64,000 nt of DNA from assembly GCA_003712055.1 (NCBI GenBank), contig RHLJ01000004.1, positions 186,001 through 250,000 of the forward strand, read 5' to 3'. Made by a program: the position numbers and the translations under genes. The stretch's first letter is position 1; every line of letters begins with the position of its first letter. The notes under the pieces were generated by a model. The model was not told where the DNA came from and did not search any database. It saw only the letters and a list, made by a program, of their open reading frames with translations. Shown here piece after piece: positions 1,886 to 44,908 of the stretch. This stretch comes from Balneola sp. GTDB taxonomy: Bacteria > Bacteroidota > Rhodothermia > Balneolales > Balneolaceae.

Positions 1886-2946
1886 CACTCAAGAAATGCT
1901 TCTGCTACTTTAAAGTGAAGGTTATCAAATCCCACGCTTGAGCGGTTTATGGCATAAGCAATGATAAAACGATCCTGTTTATTGATCAGGAACATGGTTG
2001 AGCCACCAACGGATCCTCCGGAATGACCGACCCAGAAACGCCCGTTGTTTTCAATGAACCGCCACCCCATTCCATAATTAGTACTCCGTCCGTCACTTGT
2101 CTCCTGCGGAAACATTAGCTCTTCCTGGACGGATTCATTAATGAACTCATAATCCATCATACCTATCCCAAATCGAATAAGATCTTCAGTGGTTCCAACA
2201 AAACCACCGCCGGCCCATTTATAACTGTTGTCAACCGCATCGGCTTCCATATTTCCATAAGTACCCAACACATAAAACTTTGTCAGATTCGGAATGTCTC
2301 GGTTACTCCATTCGGGAACGGTATTATTCATTCCGTTTGGATCAAAAACCATTTCTTTCATAAAAGGAAGAAACTCCTCCCCTGAAGCACCTGCAATAAC
2401 AGCACTAATTAAATTCCATCCATAACTTGAATATTGGTACCGGGTACCAGGCTCAAAAAGAAGAGGGTCATCTTTAAAAATCTCGAGACCTTTATCAACC
2501 GTTTCATAGAGTGTATTACTCATGAACTCATTTCCTCGGTAGTGCCGGATTCCTGCTAAATGCCCTGCTACTTGTTTCACCGTTATTGGGTATTCTTTTT
2601 CAGGGAAGTGTGGTACATAGGTTTGAATAAGTTCATCGGGATCCAGTTTACCACCCTGCATAAGTACCCCCATTCCTGCGGCAGTAAGAGATTTGGAAAC
2701 ACTTCCAATGCGGAACTTAGTTAATGATGGATCAACTGGGATTTGATTTTGAACATCAGCATAACCATAACCTTTCGACCAAACCATCTCATCTTCGTGG
2801 AATACAGAAATACTCATGCCTGGCAATGAAGTGCTTTCTACAAATGCTTGAACAATAGAATCCGCTTGTTGGATTGATTGGCTATAATCCTGGGCAATTA
2901 CATCAACAGTAATAAATAGAGAAAGAAGGAATAAGGAAGACTTCAT
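1885..2946 (-). CDS. Secreted serine hydrolase, class C beta-lactamase/D-aminopeptidase fold
   Basis: Member of the beta-lactamase/penicillin-binding-like serine hydrolase family (COG1680). The N-terminus is a signal peptide ending near VIAQ, so the enzyme acts in the periplasm or beyond. The catalytic SxxK motif is SVSK in FRIGSVSKSLTAAG (about residue 84), a YxN-type motif appears as YSSYGWN, and the third motif (KTG equivalent) is GHSGGSVGG near the C-terminus. Length (353 residues) is typical for the single-domain form. The family includes esterases, D-peptidases and beta-lactamases, so the substrate cannot be named; true antibiotic resistance is unlikely on context. It is the first gene of the overlapping operon ending at 600. 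Confidence 0.85.
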   Translation of the reverse strand: MKSSLFLLSLFITVDVIAQDYSQSIQQADSIVQAFVESTSLPGMSISVFHEDEMVWSKGYGYADVQNQIPVDPSLTKFRIGSVSKSLTAAGMGVLMQGGKLDPDELIQTYVPHFPEKEYPITVKQVAGHLAGIRHYRGNEFMSNTLYETVDKGLEIFKDDPLLFEPGTRYQYSSYGWNLISAVIAGASGEEFLPFMKEMVFDPNGMNNTVPEWSNRDIPNLTKFYVLGTYGNMEADAVDNSYKWAGGGFVGTTEDLIRFGIGMMDYEFINESVQEELMFPQETSDGRSTNYGMGWRFIENNGRFWVGHSGGSVGGSTMFLINKQDRFIIAYAINRSSVGFDNLHFKVAEAFLE

Positions 2947-2994
2947 AAGGGAGTATTACTTTTTGATTGCCAAGAAAGTAAGTGATAAATCTAC

Positions 2995-3672
2995 TTATTG
3001 AAATCTATAGTTTAAGCCAGCCTGAAGACCAAGACGAAAGGGTTTTATATCCCGAACGGAGAAGAAATCTTCTTCGATCATATAATCATGCAATGGGATC
3101 GTAGCATAGGGTTCAATGCTAAAGCTAAATGTTTCTGAAAACTGGTAACCCAGTCCAAGATTAGCGAAAGCACTTGCGTTAATAGTTCTCCAATCCAACC
3201 CGTCAATACTCTCAAATTCAGGTTCATCAGAAGTCTCACCAAAGTAGATGTCCATAAGCATAGAGGCACCAACATAACTAAAGAATTTCCGGTTTATGAA
3301 TCGGAAATCAGCACCAATTGGAATGCTTAAGAAGTGGGCCTTGTAACGATGTGAGGACTGTATAGCTGGGGGTGTAAGGTTGATTTGAAAACGATCCGAT
3401 TTATGTCCGAAATCATAGTATCGAAGTCCGGATTTCAGGCTAAGCCTATCGGTTATAAAATATCTCAGTCCCAAAGATGGATGAGTTCGGGGTGTGGCGT
3501 CCTGATTGTACTGAACTTCAAAAGTTTGTGCTAATATGAAATAGGAAAACTGATCTCTAGCTACGAAATAGGTATCAGCCGAGAGGTTCAGCTCCAATTT
3601 AGATAACTGACGGGAAAAGACATCTGTACTTGCAAAGAGCGTTAGTGCGAGACAGAGGAAAGAATTTTTCAT
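2995..3672 (-). CDS. Outer-membrane beta-barrel protein
   Basis: A 225-residue protein with a signal peptide (cleavage around VFSRQ) and a run of alternating hydrophobic/polar strands ending in an aromatic residue (GLNYRFQ), as expected for a small outer-membrane beta-barrel. Strand-like segments include RYFITDRLSLKSGLRYYDFG and SIPIGADFRFI. The sequence shows no specific binding motif. It is followed downstream by the serine hydrolase gene in the same direction with 48 bases between. Comparable small barrels (OMP_b-brl/PorT-like) are abundant in Bacteroidota; a specific role is not assigned. Confidence 0.72.
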   Translation of the reverse strand: MKNSFLCLALTLFASTDVFSRQLSKLELNLSADTYFVARDQFSYFILAQTFEVQYNQDATPRTHPSLGLRYFITDRLSLKSGLRYYDFGHKSDRFQINLTPPAIQSSHRYKAHFLSIPIGADFRFINRKFFSYVGASMLMDIYFGETSDEPEFESIDGLDWRTINASAFANLGLGYQFSETFSFSIEPYATIPLHDYMIEEDFFSVRDIKPFRLGLQAGLNYRFQ

Positions 3673-3760
3673 AGCTAGGAAACGGAGATTAAGCCAAATA
3701 GTTTTCGGAAATTGCTCTAAAACTCTTGTACCCTAAAAAGAAAGGAAGGTAAAAAGGGAG

Positions 3761-4423
3761 CTATTTTAACAGCTCAAAAATTTCGTCAGCTTCATACATG
3801 TCTTTTGTATTTTGCTGGTTCAAAGCATTGATCATAGCCTCAGCTACTTGATGGGCATGAATAGGTCGGTATTTTCTGATTCCAGGTATTAACGAAACCA
3901 GATTAAAGGCAGCTAGCCCCATTTTTTCCTTAGTCCGTTTTTCCTTTCTATTACCATCAAGAAAAGAAGGGCGTAGGATGCATATTTTCTTAAAGGCTAA
4001 TTGTTTTACAGCGTTATCGAGCTGGCCCTTCATATTGAGATAGAAGTTTTTTGACTGTCGGGTAGCTCCAACTGAAGAGATGAGGCAATAGGAAGAAACG
4101 CCATTAGCTGCTGCCGCTTCTGCTACATTAAATTGATGATCATAATCTACTCTGAATTGGGCTCTTTTAGTCCCTGCTTTCTTTAAAGTAGTACCAAGCG
4201 CAGAATAAAGTTCATCTCCCTGAATCAAGTGCTTCCAAACATTGATCTCTTCAAATCGACTGGTGTGTTCGGTTAGCTTTGGATGAGTAACGCCTATTGA
4301 GCGCCGATGAAAAACCAAAACTTTCTCATACCTGTCATCAGAAAGCAAAAGCTGAAGAAGGTGTGATCCGACTAAACCCGTGGCTCCAAATACTATGGCC
4401 GTTTTACCCGTTGTACTGCTCAT
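3761..4423 (-). CDS. NAD(P)-binding atypical SDR, HTATIP2/TIP30-like
   Basis: Predicted NAD(P)H-binding oxidoreductase of the atypical short-chain dehydrogenase group. The glycine-rich dinucleotide motif GATGLVGSHLL sits at about residue 12, and ISSVGATR and YLNMKG (candidate Y-x3-K) follow near residues 113-130. ILRPSFLDG matches the LRP motif of these proteins. I choose the ATG at 4423 rather than the TTG one codon earlier. At about 220 residues the length fits the TIP30/HTATIP2-like family. Substrate unknown; it may be a quinone or sugar-nucleotide type reductase. Confidence 0.78.
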   Translation of the reverse strand: MSSTTGKTAIVFGATGLVGSHLLQLLLSDDRYEKVLVFHRRSIGVTHPKLTEHTSRFEEINVWKHLIQGDELYSALGTTLKKAGTKRAQFRVDYDHQFNVAEAAAANGVSSYCLISSVGATRQSKNFYLNMKGQLDNAVKQLAFKKICILRPSFLDGNRKEKRTKEKMGLAAFNLVSLIPGIRKYRPIHAHQVAEAMINALNQQNTKDMYEADEIFELLK

Positions 4424-4492
4424 CAAAATTAAAATACTCCGAATGAAGTACTTATCTAATTATAAATGGGATATATTAGGAATACCTAACGC

Positions 4493-5701
4493 CTATTTAT
4501 GGGCATTAAGTACCCGCCGAACAATTCCGTCCATTGCTGAGCCCCTAATCCAGCGCGCGACAATTACAAGGTCATTCTCATAATCCACATACACCATATT
4601 GGTACCTGCACCAAGATGTCGGACAGAAGTTTCAGGTGCACTTGGTAGGCCTTCCTGGTTTCCATTTAGAAAGAAATTCATAAAGCCATAGCCAGGGTTT
4701 GCTTCTGTTGGAGTTCGAGCCATTTCCAACCACTCCTCAGAAATGATTTGTTCTCCATTCCATTCTCCATTTCTAAGTAGTAAGTAACCCAGGCGGGCCT
4801 GATCTCTCGCACTAATATATACTCCACCTCCCCAATGGCCTCCACCGCTTACACTTTGGATAGGTCGTCCATCTATTACCACCCAAGAAGTTTCATACCC
4901 ATACCAGCGCCAGGTAGGCGATCCGCCAATCTTGTTCATCACGTTCTCTCTGAATATCTGAGGTAAGGGCTCTCTGAATACATTAAGAGTGGCCAGCGCA
5001 AGAAGGTTTACTCTTACATCATTGTATTCATAAACAGTTCCAGGTTCATTTCTTTCACGTGTCATCCAGGTTGAGCGGTCTCCAGTTGGTCGGTCTGCCC
5101 AGTCCGGTTTACCGAACAGTGTTCCTTCCCAGTCTGAAGTTTGACGAAGCAAGTGATTCCAGGTGATTTTTGAATTATGTTCTCCTGTAAACGGCTCAAT
5201 AAACTTAGACTCTCCAAACTCTTCAGTTTTTGGTTCATTTGCATCAAACTCCATCAAGTGAATGGGGGCCATATAGGGGCCAACTTTATCATGTACATCT
5301 CTGATTAATCCTTTGTCATAAGCAAGGCCAACCGTTGTTGAGAGAACAGTTTTTGCAACGCTATGGGTCATATCTACCCGATAGGGCTCTCCCCATTCTG
5401 CTATGATGTACCCGTTTTTTATGATGATTCCGGTTTGATCACCTCTTTCTTTAAATGGTCCTATCCCATCTCCAAAAGGCTCACGGCCAAAGGTTTGATA
5501 GTGATTCACTTCCATGTTTCTTGGGTTGGACGTCTCCATTGCCTGTGCATATTCAACAGCGCTTTGGATGGAATCAGGATCTAGGCCAAGCTCTTCAGGC
5601 GTTTTCTTTTCCCAGTTCCCCCATGTTCCGGGGTAATAGGTTTGTGCCTGTAGAGTAATCGAAAGAAAACAGGTTGAAAGGATGAGAGCAATTTTTTTCA
5701 T
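4493..5701 (-). CDS. Secreted serine hydrolase, class C beta-lactamase fold (second copy)
   Basis: Second COG1680-type serine hydrolase of the window, 402 residues with a signal peptide (TLQAQ). The catalytic SxxK motif is SVAK in DMTHSVAKTVLSTTVG near residue 120; the Tyr motif is YEYNDVRVN, and HWGGGVYISARDQARLG is the glycine-rich third-motif region. The C-terminal half (RNGEWNGEQIISEEWL) matches members annotated as 6-aminohexanoate-dimer hydrolase-like. It is not a close duplicate of the protein at 1885-2946: the motif surroundings differ. Substrate unknown. It is separated from the response regulator upstream by about 60 bases. Confidence 0.84.
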   Translation of the reverse strand: MKKIALILSTCFLSITLQAQTYYPGTWGNWEKKTPEELGLDPDSIQSAVEYAQAMETSNPRNMEVNHYQTFGREPFGDGIGPFKERGDQTGIIIKNGYIIAEWGEPYRVDMTHSVAKTVLSTTVGLAYDKGLIRDVHDKVGPYMAPIHLMEFDANEPKTEEFGESKFIEPFTGEHNSKITWNHLLRQTSDWEGTLFGKPDWADRPTGDRSTWMTRERNEPGTVYEYNDVRVNLLALATLNVFREPLPQIFRENVMNKIGGSPTWRWYGYETSWVVIDGRPIQSVSGGGHWGGGVYISARDQARLGYLLLRNGEWNGEQIISEEWLEMARTPTEANPGYGFMNFFLNGNQEGLPSAPETSVRHLGAGTNMVYVDYENDLVIVARWIRGSAMDGIVRRVLNAHK

Positions 5702-5760
5702 GGCGGGCTATTTTATTTTGAGCCATAATATTACTGGTAACTTTCGAAAACAAATCAGCT

Positions 5761-6504
5761 TTAGGCGCCAAGCTGTGTTTTTACTTCTTTAACCCGTCTT
5801 CTAGAAACGGGAACCGGGGCATTATTGGAAAGCTTGAGCTCATACGTTCCTGAGAACCAGGGAATCAACTCGGTCACATGTTTTACGTTGACCAAAAATG
5901 AACGGTGAGAACGGACAAATCGTCCATCTTGGAGCCTTTTCTCTAAATGATCTAGAGTTCCATCTACACGGTATTTGTTATCAGGAGTATGAGCGTACAG
6001 CAGTTTTTCCGTGGCTTCTATATACAGAATGTCATCCAGATTTAGCACATGTATGCCTCGACCCTTTTTTGCGGTAATTACGTGCAGAGGTTTTTCCTGT
6101 TGATCTTTCAGGGCTTTTTCTAGAGCACCTGCCTGTTCCTGTTTTAGGTCTGAGATATCTTTTAGTCGGTTCAAACATTGCTGAAGACGTTCCAAGCGGA
6201 CTGGTTTTGTCAGGTAGTCGAGGGCATGAACATCAAAAGCCTTAATGGCATATTGATCATAGGCGGTAACAAATACAATATAAGGCCGGGGTTTTTCGAG
6301 TAAGGATACGACATCAAATCCATCAAGGCCTGGCATTTGGATATCCAGAAAAACCACTTCGGGCTTATGAGTATTAATGAGTTCAATGGCTTCGGAAGCA
6401 GTACCCGATTCACCCATTATCCTGATAAATTCACTTGAGTGTTCTAACAGAGAACGTAGACGGTCTCTGGCCAGGGGTTCGTCGTCAACTAAAAATGCGT
6501 TCAT
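5761..6504 (-). CDS. LytTR-family response regulator
   Basis: DNA-binding response regulator: N-terminal receiver domain (about residues 1-115) with the acidic pair DD near residue 8, the phospho-acceptor Asp in VVFLDIQMPG near residue 53 and the conserved Lys in DYLTKPVRLE. A Gln-rich linker leads to a C-terminal LytTR domain (about residues 145-245), recognised by ILYIEATEKLLYAH and RFVRSHRSFLVNVKHV. Its start overlaps the end of the kinase gene by 20 bases, so the two are translationally coupled. Likely phosphorylated by that kinase and activating or repressing nearby promoters; targets unknown. Confidence 0.93.
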   Translation of the reverse strand: MNAFLVDDEPLARDRLRSLLEHSSEFIRIMGESGTASEAIELINTHKPEVVFLDIQMPGLDGFDVVSLLEKPRPYIVFVTAYDQYAIKAFDVHALDYLTKPVRLERLQQCLNRLKDISDLKQEQAGALEKALKDQQEKPLHVITAKKGRGIHVLNLDDILYIEATEKLLYAHTPDNKYRVDGTLDHLEKRLQDGRFVRSHRSFLVNVKHVTELIPWFSGTYELKLSNNAPVPVSRRRVKEVKTQLGA

Positions 6505-26483: not shown

Positions 26484-28220
26484 TTATTTCAGGAGGGTCA
26501 TTGTTTTGGAAATGCTTCCGGCGTCACTTACCAATCGATAAAAATATACTCCAGACGAAAGTTGAGAAGCATCAAATAAGAAATTATGAGTACCCTGGTT
26601 TAGGTTTCCATCAAACAAGGTTTGTATTTCCCTGCCCATATAATCATAAACTTTTAGCGTAACCCTTTCGGCTTGAGGAGTAGTCACCCGGATGTTAGTA
26701 TTTGGATTGAAAGGGTTCGGGTAGTTTTGACTAAGTTCAATAGCGCCAGGGATTTCACTTGTGTCGATACCCGAAGAGATATAATCAGAGATTGAAAAGG
26801 TAAAAGTTTGGGGGGAAACCTGATCCGTATTTACAACGACAATGCCCACCTTCTCAATGGTATTCCAGTCGAAGTCTGTATTTACTTCAACAGTATTATT
26901 AGCAGTAGGGGCGGTTACATAATATGGTTCAACAGTATTATCCGAATTACTGTAAATCAAAAGCCCAATCTGGATGTCAGAGGACGATACATTCAAATTT
27001 AATCGAAGTTTTCCTTCAGAGTCAGTATTTGGGTTTAGTAAAAAGTACTTGGCTGAGAATCGTGCATTTTGAAACTCGTTACTTAGCTCAGTAAACAATC
27101 CGTTAAAGGTTTGAGTAAGGGTTGGCCCCGGGTAATTACTGGCTTCATCAAAACCAAAGCCGCTGGCTGTATGACTTGGGCCGGAAGCAAAATGCCACAT
27201 ATAAGATTCTAACACTGATTCCAGGTAACTCTCTCCCATGCTTACAAGTTCTTGATCTACAGCAGTTAGTAAGGGCAAAGAAACATTGTTTTCAATTCGG
27301 CTCCAAACATCGGTCCAAAATAGCTCGCCATACTTTTCATGAAAGTAAAGTGACCACGTAATATCCTCATAAGAACCTGGAATAAGAGTAGTAGAAGCAC
27401 TACTAAAGAGATCACTTCCAAAACCTGAAATATAATTGTAGTAGTCGTTTACCTGGTCATAAACGACCTCTTCCAATAATGTAGCGTCCATTTCAACCCA
27501 TCGATCCGAATCGCCACTCCAGCCCGTCTGAGTAAATTGTATGGAATGCTTAAACTCGTGAGCCATTGTTACTTTTATCGCTCCTTTCTGATCTCCTTCA
27601 GGGTCATCGTTTGGAGGAAATCCAACGAAATCATTTTCAATTTCAATTACCGTACCCCCGGGATCTGAAGCACTGGTACGGGTTAGTCCATAAGCGCCTA
27701 AATCTCTGATAAATACCTTATAGCTGCTTCCATTAGGGATAGGATCAGTAAATCCGAGCGTCTCAATTTCATGTTCATAGGAAAAGTCAGCTGCTTCAGC
27801 TACCCACTCTACATAATCGGGTATCGAGTTATCATTATTATCAGCAGGAGGAACAGCGTCGCTTCCAACCACTTCATAGTTAATTTCAAATTTTCCGGAT
27901 TCAGAAATATATGTTGCTGCCGATTGCAAAGAAGTACTTCCGATAGTTTGTTCAAAATCATTAAGCGTTTCAGCAGAAAGAGAGCCTTTATTCTTATGCA
28001 CAAACACGTTTAGCGGAGTAATGCATTTCAACAGCGTTCTTTGTGCTTGAGCTTCTCTATAAACCTCAAGCTGTTTAGAAACCGCCTCATCAGCAGTAAT
28101 CTTACCGGAGTAATATTCTTCCAGCATTTCGAGATGGTGATTATGAGTTTCTTGAGCAGTAGCTGAAAAAGCGAAAAATACTGCAACTAAAAGTGTGCTG
28201 GCTTTTAACATGGTGCGCAT
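26484..28220 (-). CDS. Secreted putative metallopeptidase with T9SS sorting domain (MXAN_6640-like)
   Basis: A 578-residue secreted protein from the ATG at 28220, with a signal peptide ending SATAQ. The central part carries the metal-binding motif AHEFKHSIQF (HExxH) and the surrounding layout of MXAN_6640-family putative metalloproteases. The C-terminal 80 residues (from IELSQNYPNPFNPNTNIRV to SKTMTLLK) are a type A T9SS sorting domain, so the protein is exported across the outer membrane by the Por system. It is transcribed away from trhO. Substrate unknown; catalytic activity is inferred from the motif only. Confidence 0.83.
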   Translation of the reverse strand: MRTMLKASTLLVAVFFAFSATAQETHNHHLEMLEEYYSGKITADEAVSKQLEVYREAQAQRTLLKCITPLNVFVHKNKGSLSAETLNDFEQTIGSTSLQSAATYISESGKFEINYEVVGSDAVPPADNNDNSIPDYVEWVAEAADFSYEHEIETLGFTDPIPNGSSYKVFIRDLGAYGLTRTSASDPGGTVIEIENDFVGFPPNDDPEGDQKGAIKVTMAHEFKHSIQFTQTGWSGDSDRWVEMDATLLEEVVYDQVNDYYNYISGFGSDLFSSASTTLIPGSYEDITWSLYFHEKYGELFWTDVWSRIENNVSLPLLTAVDQELVSMGESYLESVLESYMWHFASGPSHTASGFGFDEASNYPGPTLTQTFNGLFTELSNEFQNARFSAKYFLLNPNTDSEGKLRLNLNVSSSDIQIGLLIYSNSDNTVEPYYVTAPTANNTVEVNTDFDWNTIEKVGIVVVNTDQVSPQTFTFSISDYISSGIDTSEIPGAIELSQNYPNPFNPNTNIRVTTPQAERVTLKVYDYMGREIQTLFDGNLNQGTHNFLFDASQLSSGVYFYRLVSDAGSISKTMTLLK

Positions 28221-28313
28221 CAATTATGAACCCCTCTTTTTCAATGATTTTCCTTAAATTTGATGTTTCTTTTAACGGAAAAAAAAGCAACATCGTGTAA
28301 TCTATTTCTAAAG

Positions 28314-34123: not shown

Positions 34124-36778
34124 ATGAAAAAGCTACTATCAGTATTCATAATCGGTATTATCAGTTTAGGGCACATCCAATTAGCTAACGCGCAAAGCCA
34201 ACCTGTTTTTTCTTTAAATCAATTTGATGTTCAAGAGTTGGAAAAAGCAAAATCTGGTAGCGAAACCAGCTATTTCCAGCTTAATAGCTCAATTTTTGAA
34301 AACCCGGAATTCGATCGGGGAGCACTTTTAGATGTTACTTTGGCCACTGGTGAAACCGATCGCCTGGTAGTGCTTGCCAGGGAAGTGTATATGCCCGGAA
34401 CTGTTTCGATAAGGGCACATAAAGTTGGTGAACCAGGGCAGATTTTTGCGTTCACCTATTCAGAGGAAAAATTAAACGGGATTTACTACACCGAAGGCGG
34501 GAAACCGGCCTATTTTAATTATGATTTGGCTAAATCAAAGAATTTTGTTTCTCCCCGAAATGAGCGGGTAGAACACAAACTAGCTTGTGGTGTTGATCAT
34601 TCTGATGAATTGATCCCTACCCCCCACATTCACCATAAAACAACTAATAATCCTGTTAGTTCAGCTGCACCATTAGTTTCTACAGAAGATGATAGCGTAG
34701 CTATTGATTTAATGATTGTATATACCCAAGCATCAGAAGACTGGGCAGGAACAACAGGGTTTGGAACTATTGAAGCAGTGATTGCTCAAGCTGTAAATCT
34801 CTCACAAACAGCCTTAGATAATAGCGGAACAAACATTGATCTACGATTGGTGAATACCACTAAAACCACCTACAATGAAGAAACAGATGGAGTAGGTTCG
34901 GAAGAAAGATTATCAAGGCTTACACAAAATGACAGTGACCCGGTTTTTGATCCGGGTGATGGGCATAATGGCTTTTTGGAAGAAGTTCACTCTATCAGGG
35001 ATAACTCCGGAGCAGATGTGGTGGCGCTTCTTGCGCTTATTAGTGACACCGGAGGTTTAGGCTGGAGACTAGGAAGTACAGGCGGAGATCCTTATTTCGC
35101 CTTTAATTTAAACCGGGTTCAGCAAGTGGCGGATACTTATACCCTGATGCACGAAATTGGTCATAATATGGGGAATTCACACTCCAGAACTCAATCTTCG
35201 TCAGCAGCCGATGAAGGCGGGGGGTTATTCCAGTACTCAGTGGGGTATCAAAATACTACGGCTAGTTACCATACGGTAATGTCGTATTCGGATAATGGTC
35301 AGCAAGAAGCTCCGTATTTCTCCAGTCCGAATATTATCTATTTGGGGTCAGCAACGGGTTCAAGTAGTAGCCAGTTTCCTGCCGATAATGTGAGAAGCAT
35401 GAGGCTTATTAAGCGCACTATCTCTAAATACAGAACCAGCAATACTGAGTCCCCTTCGGCTGATGTATCAGCGAATACTATTTCTATTCAAATGAATAGA
35501 GAAGAAAATCAGAACATACCGTATGAGGTTTCAAACAGTGGGCAAAGCTTATTGGTTTGGGATATAGATTTCCGATTTGATTCACAGTTCAAAAGAGCTA
35601 AAAATACAGGACAAACTATTGCTCCGGCCGACTTTACCAGAGTTATTTCTGCTCCGGCTAATTATTCCGGATTATTAAACGCGAAGTCAAAAAGCGTAGC
35701 AGAGGAAACCATTTACTCTACATCTTTCGAAGGTGGAGATGGTTTCTTTAGCGGAACTTTTGGTGGCATTCAGGAATGGAGATCTACATCAGGGGACGAG
35801 TTTGATATCTCAACCAATAATCCGAATACGGGAAGTAATCATCTAAGAATAAACGGAGATGGAACGGAGAATACTCGTTTTATTAGTGCTCCATTCTTTG
35901 GTTACCAACTATTTGGTGAATACGAAATTACAGTAAACTTCTCGGTATCAACTACCAGTGATGTTTACGACATATACATTACAGATGCGAATAATGGAGA
36001 GTTTACAGCCGGAGCTATCATAGCTCAAGGGACTTTATTTGCAGCGGATGAAAACGAGAGCGGCGGAGTAAGCTTCTTTGGTACGGGTTCTGTAATAAAT
36101 GCGAATCAGTACTACGAGCTAACAATGGTAGTAAATCCTGATGACCAGGAAATCAATTATCTGCTTAATGGGGTAACCATTGCAAACAATGGTTATGTAG
36201 GAGGTTTCAGTCCCGGCGAAATGGTTGTATTAAACAGAAGCCAGGTTGTTGGTTCTAATTTTGATCTTGATGATATCGAGATAAGAAAGATAAGCGCCCC
36301 CTACCCATGGCTAAATTTAACTGAACAAACAGGGTTTGCGGTTGAAGGAGGCTCTTCCTCAACAACATTACAGTTTACGACCGTGGGCGTTTCTGCTGGA
36401 ACTTATACATCATCGATGAGGGTACGAACTAATGATCCTCAGAATCAGGAATATTCCGTTCCAATTACCCTTACTGTTGCCAATGTAGTTTCTAATGAGC
36501 CAGGTGACGCTCCTACCGAAATCTCACTTAGTCAGAATTTCCCGAATCCGTTTAATCCTCAGACGACGATCTCATACAGTCTGACAAACCCGGGAGAGAT
36601 CAGCTTGGCGGTTTACAATATTCAGGGACAAAAAGTGGCTACTTTATTTGAGGGTGTTCAACAAGCAGGTGAATTCGATGTGCTTTTTGATGCAACTAAC
36701 TTATCAAGTGGTATTTATATCTACCGTTTACAAACCGCAAGGGAAGTAATCACCAGGCAAATGGCTCTTATCAAATAA
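34124..36778 (+). CDS. Secreted metzincin metalloprotease with T9SS sorting domain
   Basis: An 884-residue secreted zinc protease from ATG 34124, which gives a clean signal peptide (cleaved near ANAQS). A propeptide-like region covers about residues 30-160, with MPGTVSIRA and EEKLNG. The catalytic domain carries HEIGHNMGNSHSR (HExxHxxGxxH, first His near residue 343) and the Met-turn VMSYSD; this is a reprolysin-like metzincin. Later beta-sandwich regions precede a type A T9SS sorting domain (ISLSQNFPNPFNPQTTI to TRQMALIK). The next gene, two bases downstream, resembles its propeptide. It lies two genes after porX, whose product regulates this export route. Confidence 0.9.
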   Translation: MKKLLSVFIIGIISLGHIQLANAQSQPVFSLNQFDVQELEKAKSGSETSYFQLNSSIFENPEFDRGALLDVTLATGETDRLVVLAREVYMPGTVSIRAHKVGEPGQIFAFTYSEEKLNGIYYTEGGKPAYFNYDLAKSKNFVSPRNERVEHKLACGVDHSDELIPTPHIHHKTTNNPVSSAAPLVSTEDDSVAIDLMIVYTQASEDWAGTTGFGTIEAVIAQAVNLSQTALDNSGTNIDLRLVNTTKTTYNEETDGVGSEERLSRLTQNDSDPVFDPGDGHNGFLEEVHSIRDNSGADVVALLALISDTGGLGWRLGSTGGDPYFAFNLNRVQQVADTYTLMHEIGHNMGNSHSRTQSSSAADEGGGLFQYSVGYQNTTASYHTVMSYSDNGQQEAPYFSSPNIIYLGSATGSSSSQFPADNVRSMRLIKRTISKYRTSNTESPSADVSANTISIQMNREENQNIPYEVSNSGQSLLVWDIDFRFDSQFKRAKNTGQTIAPADFTRVISAPANYSGLLNAKSKSVAEETIYSTSFEGGDGFFSGTFGGIQEWRSTSGDEFDISTNNPNTGSNHLRINGDGTENTRFISAPFFGYQLFGEYEITVNFSVSTTSDVYDIYITDANNGEFTAGAIIAQGTLFAADENESGGVSFFGTGSVINANQYYELTMVVNPDDQEINYLLNGVTIANNGYVGGFSPGEMVVLNRSQVVGSNFDLDDIEIRKISAPYPWLNLTEQTGFAVEGGSSSTTLQFTTVGVSAGTYTSSMRVRTNDPQNQEYSVPITLTVANVVSNEPGDAPTEISLSQNFPNPFNPQTTISYSLTNPGEISLAVYNIQGQKVATLFEGVQQAGEFDVLFDATNLSSGIYIYRLQTAREVITRQMALIK

Positions 36779-36780
36779 TT

Positions 36781-37272
36781 ATGTACAAAAAGCTGCTAAC
36801 TACTTGTTTGAGTCTTCTTCTAATGATGGGAATGGGTTGTTCTCAAAAGGAACAACCAGAAACCCAGGAAGAACCAATAAAAGAATTTATTGAAAGTGAT
36901 GAAGTAAATAAGGCCAGTTTATTTGTTGAAGTAGATATCCAGGCGCTTTCCAAGTCAAATCAAGGGGATAGTTTTTTAATTACTCTTAGCGATGGTACGG
37001 AATACACTCTTCAAATAAATAGAATTGAAGAAACCATGCCTGGGGTTATAAGTATCGCAGCGAATGTAAATGATGGAGAAACAGGGCAATCTAACCTGAT
37101 TCTGCAGAATGAGAAGCTAAACGGAAGGATTCAAATGTTTAAGGAGGGAATGACGTACCAACTTGGCTTTGAGGACCATACCAACAAGCATTTTATTGCT
37201 CCGTTAGATCCCGAAGAAAAAGATGTGTTACAAGGAAGCGAACCACTGGAAGTTCCAAAAACAGATGGGTAA
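36781..37272 (+). CDS. Lipoprotein resembling the propeptide of the adjacent metzincin
   Basis: A 163-residue lipoprotein (signal peptide, lipobox MGMGC, Cys20, then a charged linker). Residues about 66-125 align with the propeptide-like region of the protease encoded just upstream: ITLSDGT against VTLATGE, MPGVISIAA against MPGTVSIRA, GETGQ against GEPGQ, and EKLNG against EKLNG. The spacing of TLxxG, MPG and KLNG is the same in both except for two one-residue shifts around GQ, with about 20 identities over 55 positions. It begins two bases after the protease stop, so the two are co-translated. This suggests a lipid-anchored inhibitor or folding partner for that protease; no such family is known to me. 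Confidence 0.75.
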   Translation: MYKKLLTTCLSLLLMMGMGCSQKEQPETQEEPIKEFIESDEVNKASLFVEVDIQALSKSNQGDSFLITLSDGTEYTLQINRIEETMPGVISIAANVNDGETGQSNLILQNEKLNGRIQMFKEGMTYQLGFEDHTNKHFIAPLDPEEKDVLQGSEPLEVPKTDG

Positions 37273-43969: not shown

Positions 43970-44908
43970 ATGAAGGTTACATCAAATTTATTAAAACCAT
44001 TGTTAACGACAGGTATCCTCACCTTGTCGATTTTTTTTGCAGTTGAAGAAAGTGCTGCACAACGAGCCTATATGACTCAAGAATTTTCAGTTCGAGACAA
44101 TTCGAATATTGAGGTAAAAACATCAGGTGGAAGTATAGAGGTGATCGGAACAGATTCTGATCAGGTACAAGTTGAAATGTATGTAAAGCGAAGAGGGGAC
44201 TATCTTTCCCCATCAGAAGCAGACCTGGATGATTGGGAGATTACTATCGAGAAGGAAGGGAATACAGTATATGCCATCGCGGAAAGAGAAAATAAAAATT
44301 GGGGGAACTGGAGAGGAGACAATCTGAGTATTTCCTTCAAGGTATACGCTCCGGAACGATCTAAAACGGATTTAAGAACTTCAGGTGGAAGTATTACTAT
44401 GAGTGACTTGCAAGGTGATCAATTAGCAAGAACCAGTGGTGGAAGTATGACAGCTGAAAGAATTAACGGAGATATCAATCTCAAGACTTCTGGCGGAAGT
44501 ATAACTATTGAAGAAGTAGAAGGAAGTGTTGATGCCAATACTAGTGGTGGCAGAATCCGTGCCTCTGATGTAACTGGTGGAATTAATGCCAGAACCAGTG
44601 GCGGTAGCATCACCCTTTATAATATTGCTGGAAATGTAGAAGCAAAAACCAGCGGTGGTTCGATTGATGCTGAAATAGTTGATCCTGACGATTTCATCGA
44701 GCTTCGAACTTCGGGTGGAAGTATTAGTATCAAGGTCCCAAAGGATAATGGTTTTGATGTAGACCTTGGTGGAAATAGGGTTCGTGCCGACTTAGCAAAC
44801 TTTAAAGGCGAGCTAGATAAAAATGACATGGAAGGAACCTTGAATGGTGGAGGAACCAAGCTTTCTGCAAAAACCTCAGGCGGATCAGTTAGATTAAGCT
44901 ATTTCTAA
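43970..44908 (+). CDS. DUF4097 beta-strand-repeat protein
   Basis: A 312-residue secreted protein with a signal peptide (SAAQRA) and a right-handed or parallel beta-like array of short repeats, each near TSGGSI-x-(6 to 9 residues). The repeated RTSGGSITMSDLQG, KTSGGSITIEEVEG, NTSGGRIRASDVTG and RTSGGSITLYNIAG make it a DUF4097-type putative adhesin/beta-repeat protein. Exact function unknown. It ends upstream of a strong terminator. Confidence 0.85.
   Translation: MKVTSNLLKPLLTTGILTLSIFFAVEESAAQRAYMTQEFSVRDNSNIEVKTSGGSIEVIGTDSDQVQVEMYVKRRGDYLSPSEADLDDWEITIEKEGNTVYAIAERENKNWGNWRGDNLSISFKVYAPERSKTDLRTSGGSITMSDLQGDQLARTSGGSMTAERINGDINLKTSGGSITIEEVEGSVDANTSGGRIRASDVTGGINARTSGGSITLYNIAGNVEAKTSGGSIDAEIVDPDDFIELRTSGGSISIKVPKDNGFDVDLGGNRVRADLANFKGELDKNDMEGTLNGGGTKLSAKTSGGSVRLSYF

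Follow-up and report, generated by a model that had tools for sequence, protein, structure and literature searches.

A lipoprotein related to the prodomain of the T9SS metzincin encoded beside it in Balneola, and its probable role in trans

Metzincin prodomains commonly act as both inhibitor and chaperone of their enzymes. Free-standing propeptide relatives that inhibit an enzyme in trans are also known (Spi/Bfi of C10, I29, I9); these have cysteine or serine proteases as targets, and their folds are unrelated to the one considered here. In a 64,000-nt stretch of Balneola sp. DNA (contig RHLJ01000004.1, positions 186,001 to 250,000; the window), a T9SS metzincin gene is directly followed by the gene of a small lipoprotein. 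The initial annotation proposed that this lipoprotein is a separate propeptide copy that binds the exported protease as a trans-acting inhibitor or escort. Is the lipoprotein related to the prodomain, where did it come from, and what would a second prodomain do? The reading favoured here, and held to be probable, is that the lipoprotein is a lipid-anchored metzincin prodomain without the switch cysteine, which serves the protease in trans as chaperone/inhibitor up to its export.

The protease (34124..36778, + strand, from ATG 34124 to the stop at 36778; 884 aa) has a signal peptide, its own N-terminal prodomain, a reprolysin-like metzincin catalytic domain (34700..35470; profile A3 and AlphaFold2 model) with the zinc-binding motif HEIGHNMGNSHS (35150..35185), and a type A T9SS C-terminal sorting domain (36539..36757; PF18962 at residues 806-878, TIGR04183 6e-11). 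It matches Pfam Reprolysin_5 (2.3e-15) and Por_Secre_tail (7.4e-9), and its nearest NCBIfam model is Mep72 (2.9e-28, under the equivalog cut-off). The beta-domain of the cis prodomain, delimited by the AlphaFold2 zymogen model and by homology with the lipoprotein, spans 34268..34552 and consists of a helix and seven main strands. Near the prodomain end, Cys155 (codon 34586..34588; HKLACGVDH) lies at a cysteine-switch-like position, and by analogy with the MMP/ADAM-type and mirolysin switches it may be a zinc ligand.

The AlphaFold2 model of the N-terminal and catalytic part has pLDDT 91 and pTM 0.92, with about 97 pLDDT for the prodomain. Both domains of this zymogen model align with those of profragilysin (292 residues, Z 19.5) and of the ADAM17 zymogen (294 residues, Z 19.5); the N-terminal domain is therefore very probably a genuine prodomain, positioned in the model as in solved zymogens. 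For the catalytic domain, CpaA (6o38_A) ranks first among solved structures, with Z 24.5 over 201 residues. The window holds a second T9SS-tailed putative metalloprotease, of the MXAN_6640 family (26484-28223, - strand; 4.9e-51), and a secreted protein with many TSGGSI-like repeats that possibly form a beta-helix domain (43970-44908, + strand).

The lipoprotein gene (36781..37272, + strand, ATG 36781, stop 37272; 163 aa) starts after a stop-to-ATG gap of 2 nt (36779..36780), which suggests one operon with the protease. The lipid anchor assigned by the initial annotation was borne out: the type II signal peptide (36781..36840) ends in the lipobox MGMGC with lipid-attached Cys20, and a lipobox-like Cys is found in aligned relatives. 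The mature protein comprises a prodomain/CpaB-like beta-domain (36919..37206), defined by an AlphaFold2 core of pLDDT about 95 and by PDB matches, and a conserved C-terminal tail, DVLxGxxPL (37207..37269), in which D129, L131, G133 and P136 are invariant in 12/12 close members. Neither the lipoprotein nor the cis prodomain has a credible match in Pfam, NCBIfam or PADLOC. Balneolota lipoproteins are under purifying selection (dN/dS 0.18-0.26).

The alignment noticed originally between the lipoprotein and the propeptide-like region was reproduced by BLASTP, which in a single comparison pairs protease residues 64-144 with lipoprotein residues 60-141 (26/83 identities, 31%, E 7e-6). The similarity extends beyond the stretch first described, via FVSP/FIAP toward the cysteine-bearing segment of the protease. 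When profiles of 24 mature lipoproteins and 35 Balneolota prodomains are compared, hhalign gives E 1.8e-21 (probability 99.4), against 0.019 or worse for five column-shuffled controls and 0.0026 for one reversed control. An HMM built from the lipoproteins alone, searched over 296 genomes of the phylum, gave matches of two classes, one of small exported proteins and one of large ORFs hit at the N-terminus, and those large ORFs that were inspected encode metzincins; an exact-pattern genome scan with the lone lipoprotein sequence gave no match. Chance, or fold-level convergence of two small beta-rich domains, might be argued from a pairwise identity of about 31% over 83 residues, but it has a negligible probability given the distance of the profile score from controls at 3e-3 or worse and the specificity of the HMM across the 296 genomes. 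The lipoprotein and the cis prodomain are homologous, far beyond chance.

Homology does not make the lipoprotein a fresh copy of its neighbour's own propeptide, and this part of the original claim fell. In a tree of this short domain, in which many forks are unresolved, the Balneolota lipoproteins are set apart from the Balneolota cis prodomains; the tree rules out recent duplication of the neighbouring prodomain and indicates an old paralogous family.

The two families also differ at the switch position. A cysteine within the 75 residues that precede the catalytic domain, mostly as C-G, is found in 45/45 nonredundant Balneolota cis prodomains, and a prodomain-type cysteine in the domain of 0/26 Balneolota lipoproteins. 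Two alignment methods out of three give a column with Cys in 27/27 cis prodomains and, in the 24 lipoproteins, Gly (21) or Glu (3) but no Cys; the third method places a gap there; Gly133 (mature lipoprotein numbering) occupies the place of the prodomain cysteine. Nitrospira cis prodomains and most of the gammaproteobacterial set are without the cysteine, so the switch cysteine is not universal. At one locus (L060/L152) the protease (2498-6031) lacks a prodomain, and a secreted, non-lipidated prodomain that keeps the cysteine (LKCGG) comes from the gene upstream (1948-2502); this is a split prodomain. A second such candidate, L103:4467-5072, was not counted as a split-prodomain pair, as its genome yielded no metzincin of this family; its product is a lone secreted prodomain-like protein with a cysteine.

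Related structures had been expected by the initial annotation, and the two separately built AlphaFold2 models do share their order of elements. The lipoprotein model, built from its own family alone (26 rows, core pLDDT near 95), has E28-31, H34-38, E45-50, E55-67, E70-77, E83-90, E93-100, E105-112 and E117-123; the cis prodomain has E25-29, H31-35, E44-48, E54-63, E70-76, E79-89, E92-98, E104-110 and E115-119. For the lipoprotein model, Foldseek puts the CpaB chains of 6o38 at the top (probability 1.00, E 5e-3, TM 0.50-0.59), with ADAM17 ranked lower. VIA-align likewise places CpaB first, at Z 10.4 over 106 residues, a moderate outlier for a model compared by a method whose best Z is typically 7-8 without a clear match; the ADAM17 prodomain is second (Z 8.0-8.3), and profragilysin stands further down, at Z 5.5, amid unrelated barrels. 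The CpaB match gains credibility from the presence of both metzincin partners and prodomains in a single structural match list. PDB sequence searches with the lipoprotein, the lipoprotein family and BamI returned noise only, and the link to CpaB is thus a structural one; this, with a Z moderately over background, counts against the trans-prodomain reading. The matches to CpaB and the ADAM17 prodomain nevertheless make a role as trans-acting inhibitor or escort likely.

Conservation of the gene pair across Balneolota, which the original proposal implied, is pronounced. Tight same-strand adjacency, usually with 1-2 nt between the genes, occurs in 23 pairs (including two further loci, L105 and L124), and the gap is 1-2 nt in 12 close pairs. 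In 92 genomes of the host family the lipoprotein adjoins a metzincin in nearly every case; one presumed member, L070, was dropped as a false match. Many pairs lie in a syntenic locus of chorismate mutase, protease, lipoprotein, HPPD-like and TlpA-like genes, and at three loci (L058, L059, L067) the order is reversed, with the lipoprotein upstream.

Either gene can occur alone. The protease is present without the lipoprotein at the same locus in L107 and L108, and the second metzincin copy of the window's genome (L034:7486-10059), at the end of the ancestral locus marked by chorismate mutase and uvrB, is likewise without it. The opposite pattern, a lipoprotein away from proteases, was seen in part: three draft genomes, G029, G069 and G073 (96, 94 and 71% complete), keep the lipoprotein, and genome-wide searches of them gave no metzincin of this family. 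In G029 a protease gene without its catalytic region (L039:9188-9613) adjoins an intact lipoprotein gene, and this truncation could be a deletion or an assembly error. The orphan lipoproteins (L112, L113, L039) are intact, with dN/dS of about 0.18 (synonymous sites being saturated for L112/L113). Both the unpartnered proteases and the persisting lipoproteins weigh against a trans-acting prodomain, as does the fact that the protease already has a prodomain in cis.

Free-standing relatives are also found beyond Balneolota. Among 80 metzincin loci, 12, from Nitrospira(ceae), have a secreted stand-alone relative a short way downstream of the metzincin (L169, L170, L173, L174, L176, L180, L181, L182, L184, L187, L188, L190), about 65-125 nt from the protease where starts are clear. 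These free copies and the cis prodomain align in register (E 5.5e-17), and the free copies always stop at the Asp where the cis prodomain runs on with DHHP. In the tree, within the limits given above, they group with the Nitrospira cis prodomains (96*), while the Balneolota lipoproteins stand apart; at least two separate releases of the prodomain, one in each group, are thus likely. In a gammaproteobacterium, a lipoprotein gene (L225:2713-3273; 4e-11) lies ahead of a metzincin gene, and a Bacteroidales case (L136:956-1480) is a weaker match.

No Mep72 scored above the cut-off in a random sample of Gammaproteobacteria; a sample of Pseudomonadaceae contained such proteins. In these equivalogs the metzincin domain directly follows the signal peptide, with no cis prodomain, and the gene upstream, in the position of BamI, has an N-terminally anchored product (L246-L257). 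The BamI-position proteins of 12 Mep72 loci, whose identity with PA2782 is inferred from position, match the prodomains (1.3e-5) and the lipoproteins (9.6e-5) weakly, at probabilities of 58-81% and against controls of 5e-3 or worse; L257 is a stronger bridge to the prodomains (1.9e-9). On this weaker evidence, the genes beside Mep72 appear to encode anchored trans prodomains.

These pairings bear on whether the lipoprotein is an ex-prodomain paralogue that now has an unrelated envelope function and no contact with a protease. The three genomes with a lipoprotein and no protease, together with the deep divergence from cis prodomains, would fit such a history. It is nonetheless quite improbable, in view of the 1-2 nt adjacency in most genomes with either gene order, the pairing also in Nitrospira, one gammaproteobacterium and Pseudomonas, and the conservation of the tail at the switch position.

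The statement that no family of this type had been described was wrong in kind, since CpaB, BamI and potempins are described partners of neighbouring proteases. CpaB is a membrane-anchored chaperone needed for the stability and secretion of CpaA (PMC7542363, PMC4713064), and its C-terminal tail is reported to enter and block the CpaA active site in the manner of a zymogen segment (PMC7542363). CpaB of Acinetobacter (PDB 6o38) resembles the lipoprotein in predicted fold, in its envelope anchor and in a gene directly downstream of a metzincin, and its partner CpaA is the structure closest to the catalytic domain of the window protease. It differs in having a transmembrane helix instead of a lipobox and a T2SS partner instead of one with a T9SS sorting domain; no sequence similarity was found between CpaB and the lipoprotein, and the window protease retains a cis prodomain.

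BamI is a binding partner of Mep72 that relieves the toxicity of this protease, by a mode of action that was left open (PMC4334185). It is similar to the lipoprotein in its adjacent gene and in a partner from the same NCBIfam neighbourhood; it differs in its upstream gene, N-terminal hydrophobic anchor and T2SS context, and Mep72 is without the cis prodomain that the window protease has. Potempins of Tannerella forsythia, compared by description, are small lipoproteins encoded beside T9SS (KLIKK) proteases and are described as their specific inhibitors (PMC7296668; PMC4404884). Their genes lie upstream of the protease, whereas the lipoprotein gene lies downstream except at the three reversed loci; no mutual sequence similarity is reported among them, and the papers cited here do not describe them as related to prodomains. 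Tim of Listeria is also encoded right after a secreted metzincin, Mtz, but is described as TIMP-like and cleaved by the metzincin, and belongs to a phage-derived locus of a Gram-positive host (PMC8235301). The prodomains of ADAM17 and profragilysin have a predicted-fold likeness to the lipoprotein and stand in solved zymogens that match both protease domains; they are part of the enzyme chain, neither separate nor lipid-anchored.

Potempins also supply the precedent for a role that is mainly immunity, in which an outward-facing lipoprotein would shield the producer, or non-producing kin, from released active protease (PMC7296668; PMC4404884). The intact orphans under constraint (with the saturation given above) resemble orphan immunity genes and lean toward such a role after release, and the cis prodomain already covers the export stage. 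Against this, CpaB, the closest solved match, works on the periplasmic side and secretion depends on it; the CpaB match leans toward escort before export. Some proteases also occur without the lipoprotein at the same locus. Immunity as the main role is regarded as unlikely, if the strongest of the competing readings.

An export or folding chaperone without inhibition would agree with the requirement for CpaB in the secretion and stability of CpaA and with the absence of the switch cysteine from all lipoproteins. Metzincin prodomains, as a rule, do both jobs. The CpaB tail is reported to sit in the active site (PMC7542363), and BamI suppresses toxicity (PMC4334185), which makes a pure chaperone somewhat less probable still than immunity.

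For the favoured trans-prodomain role, we infer binding, active-site block, chaperoning and the side of the membrane from these comparisons. The lipoprotein would be exported and lipid-anchored in the envelope. There it would dock onto the catalytic domain of the protease encoded beside it, at the site that prodomains use, and the DVLxGxxPL tail would lie within the active-site cleft or close to it, as is reported for the tail of CpaB on CpaA. Because the lipoprotein is without the switch cysteine, the block is proposed to be steric and reversible, with no Cys-zinc bond. The lipoprotein would thus stabilise the protease and keep it inactive during its crossing of the periplasm to the T9SS, besides the cis prodomain, and would likewise hold prematurely activated molecules inactive.

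Anchored metzincin partners with adjacent genes, and lipoproteins that inhibit T9SS proteases, had been described before. Three things look new against the literature and family libraries covered: that such a partner is homologous in sequence to the prodomain which the enzyme itself retains; the combination of T9SS, lipoprotein and retained cis prodomain; and the repeated occurrence in several phyla, which would bring BamI, and on structural grounds CpaB, under the same scheme. A speculative extension, rather doubtful at present, is a general two-key control of exported metzincins by a cis prodomain (often with a Cys switch) and an envelope-anchored Cys-less paralogue; prodomains would have become separate genes on three or more occasions (in Balneolota, Nitrospirota and Gammaproteobacteria), the set would include CpaB and BamI, and orphans would provide immunity against the proteases of relatives.

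The finding gives orphan-looking protease partners a traceable origin, as prodomains turned into separate genes, and links BamI tentatively, and CpaB structurally, to metzincin prodomains. The sequence profile obtained finds such pairs in several phyla, and free prodomains may serve as natural templates for selective metalloprotease inhibitors. For Balneola and its relatives, the lipoprotein is a possible means of keeping T9SS proteases harmless inside the cell.
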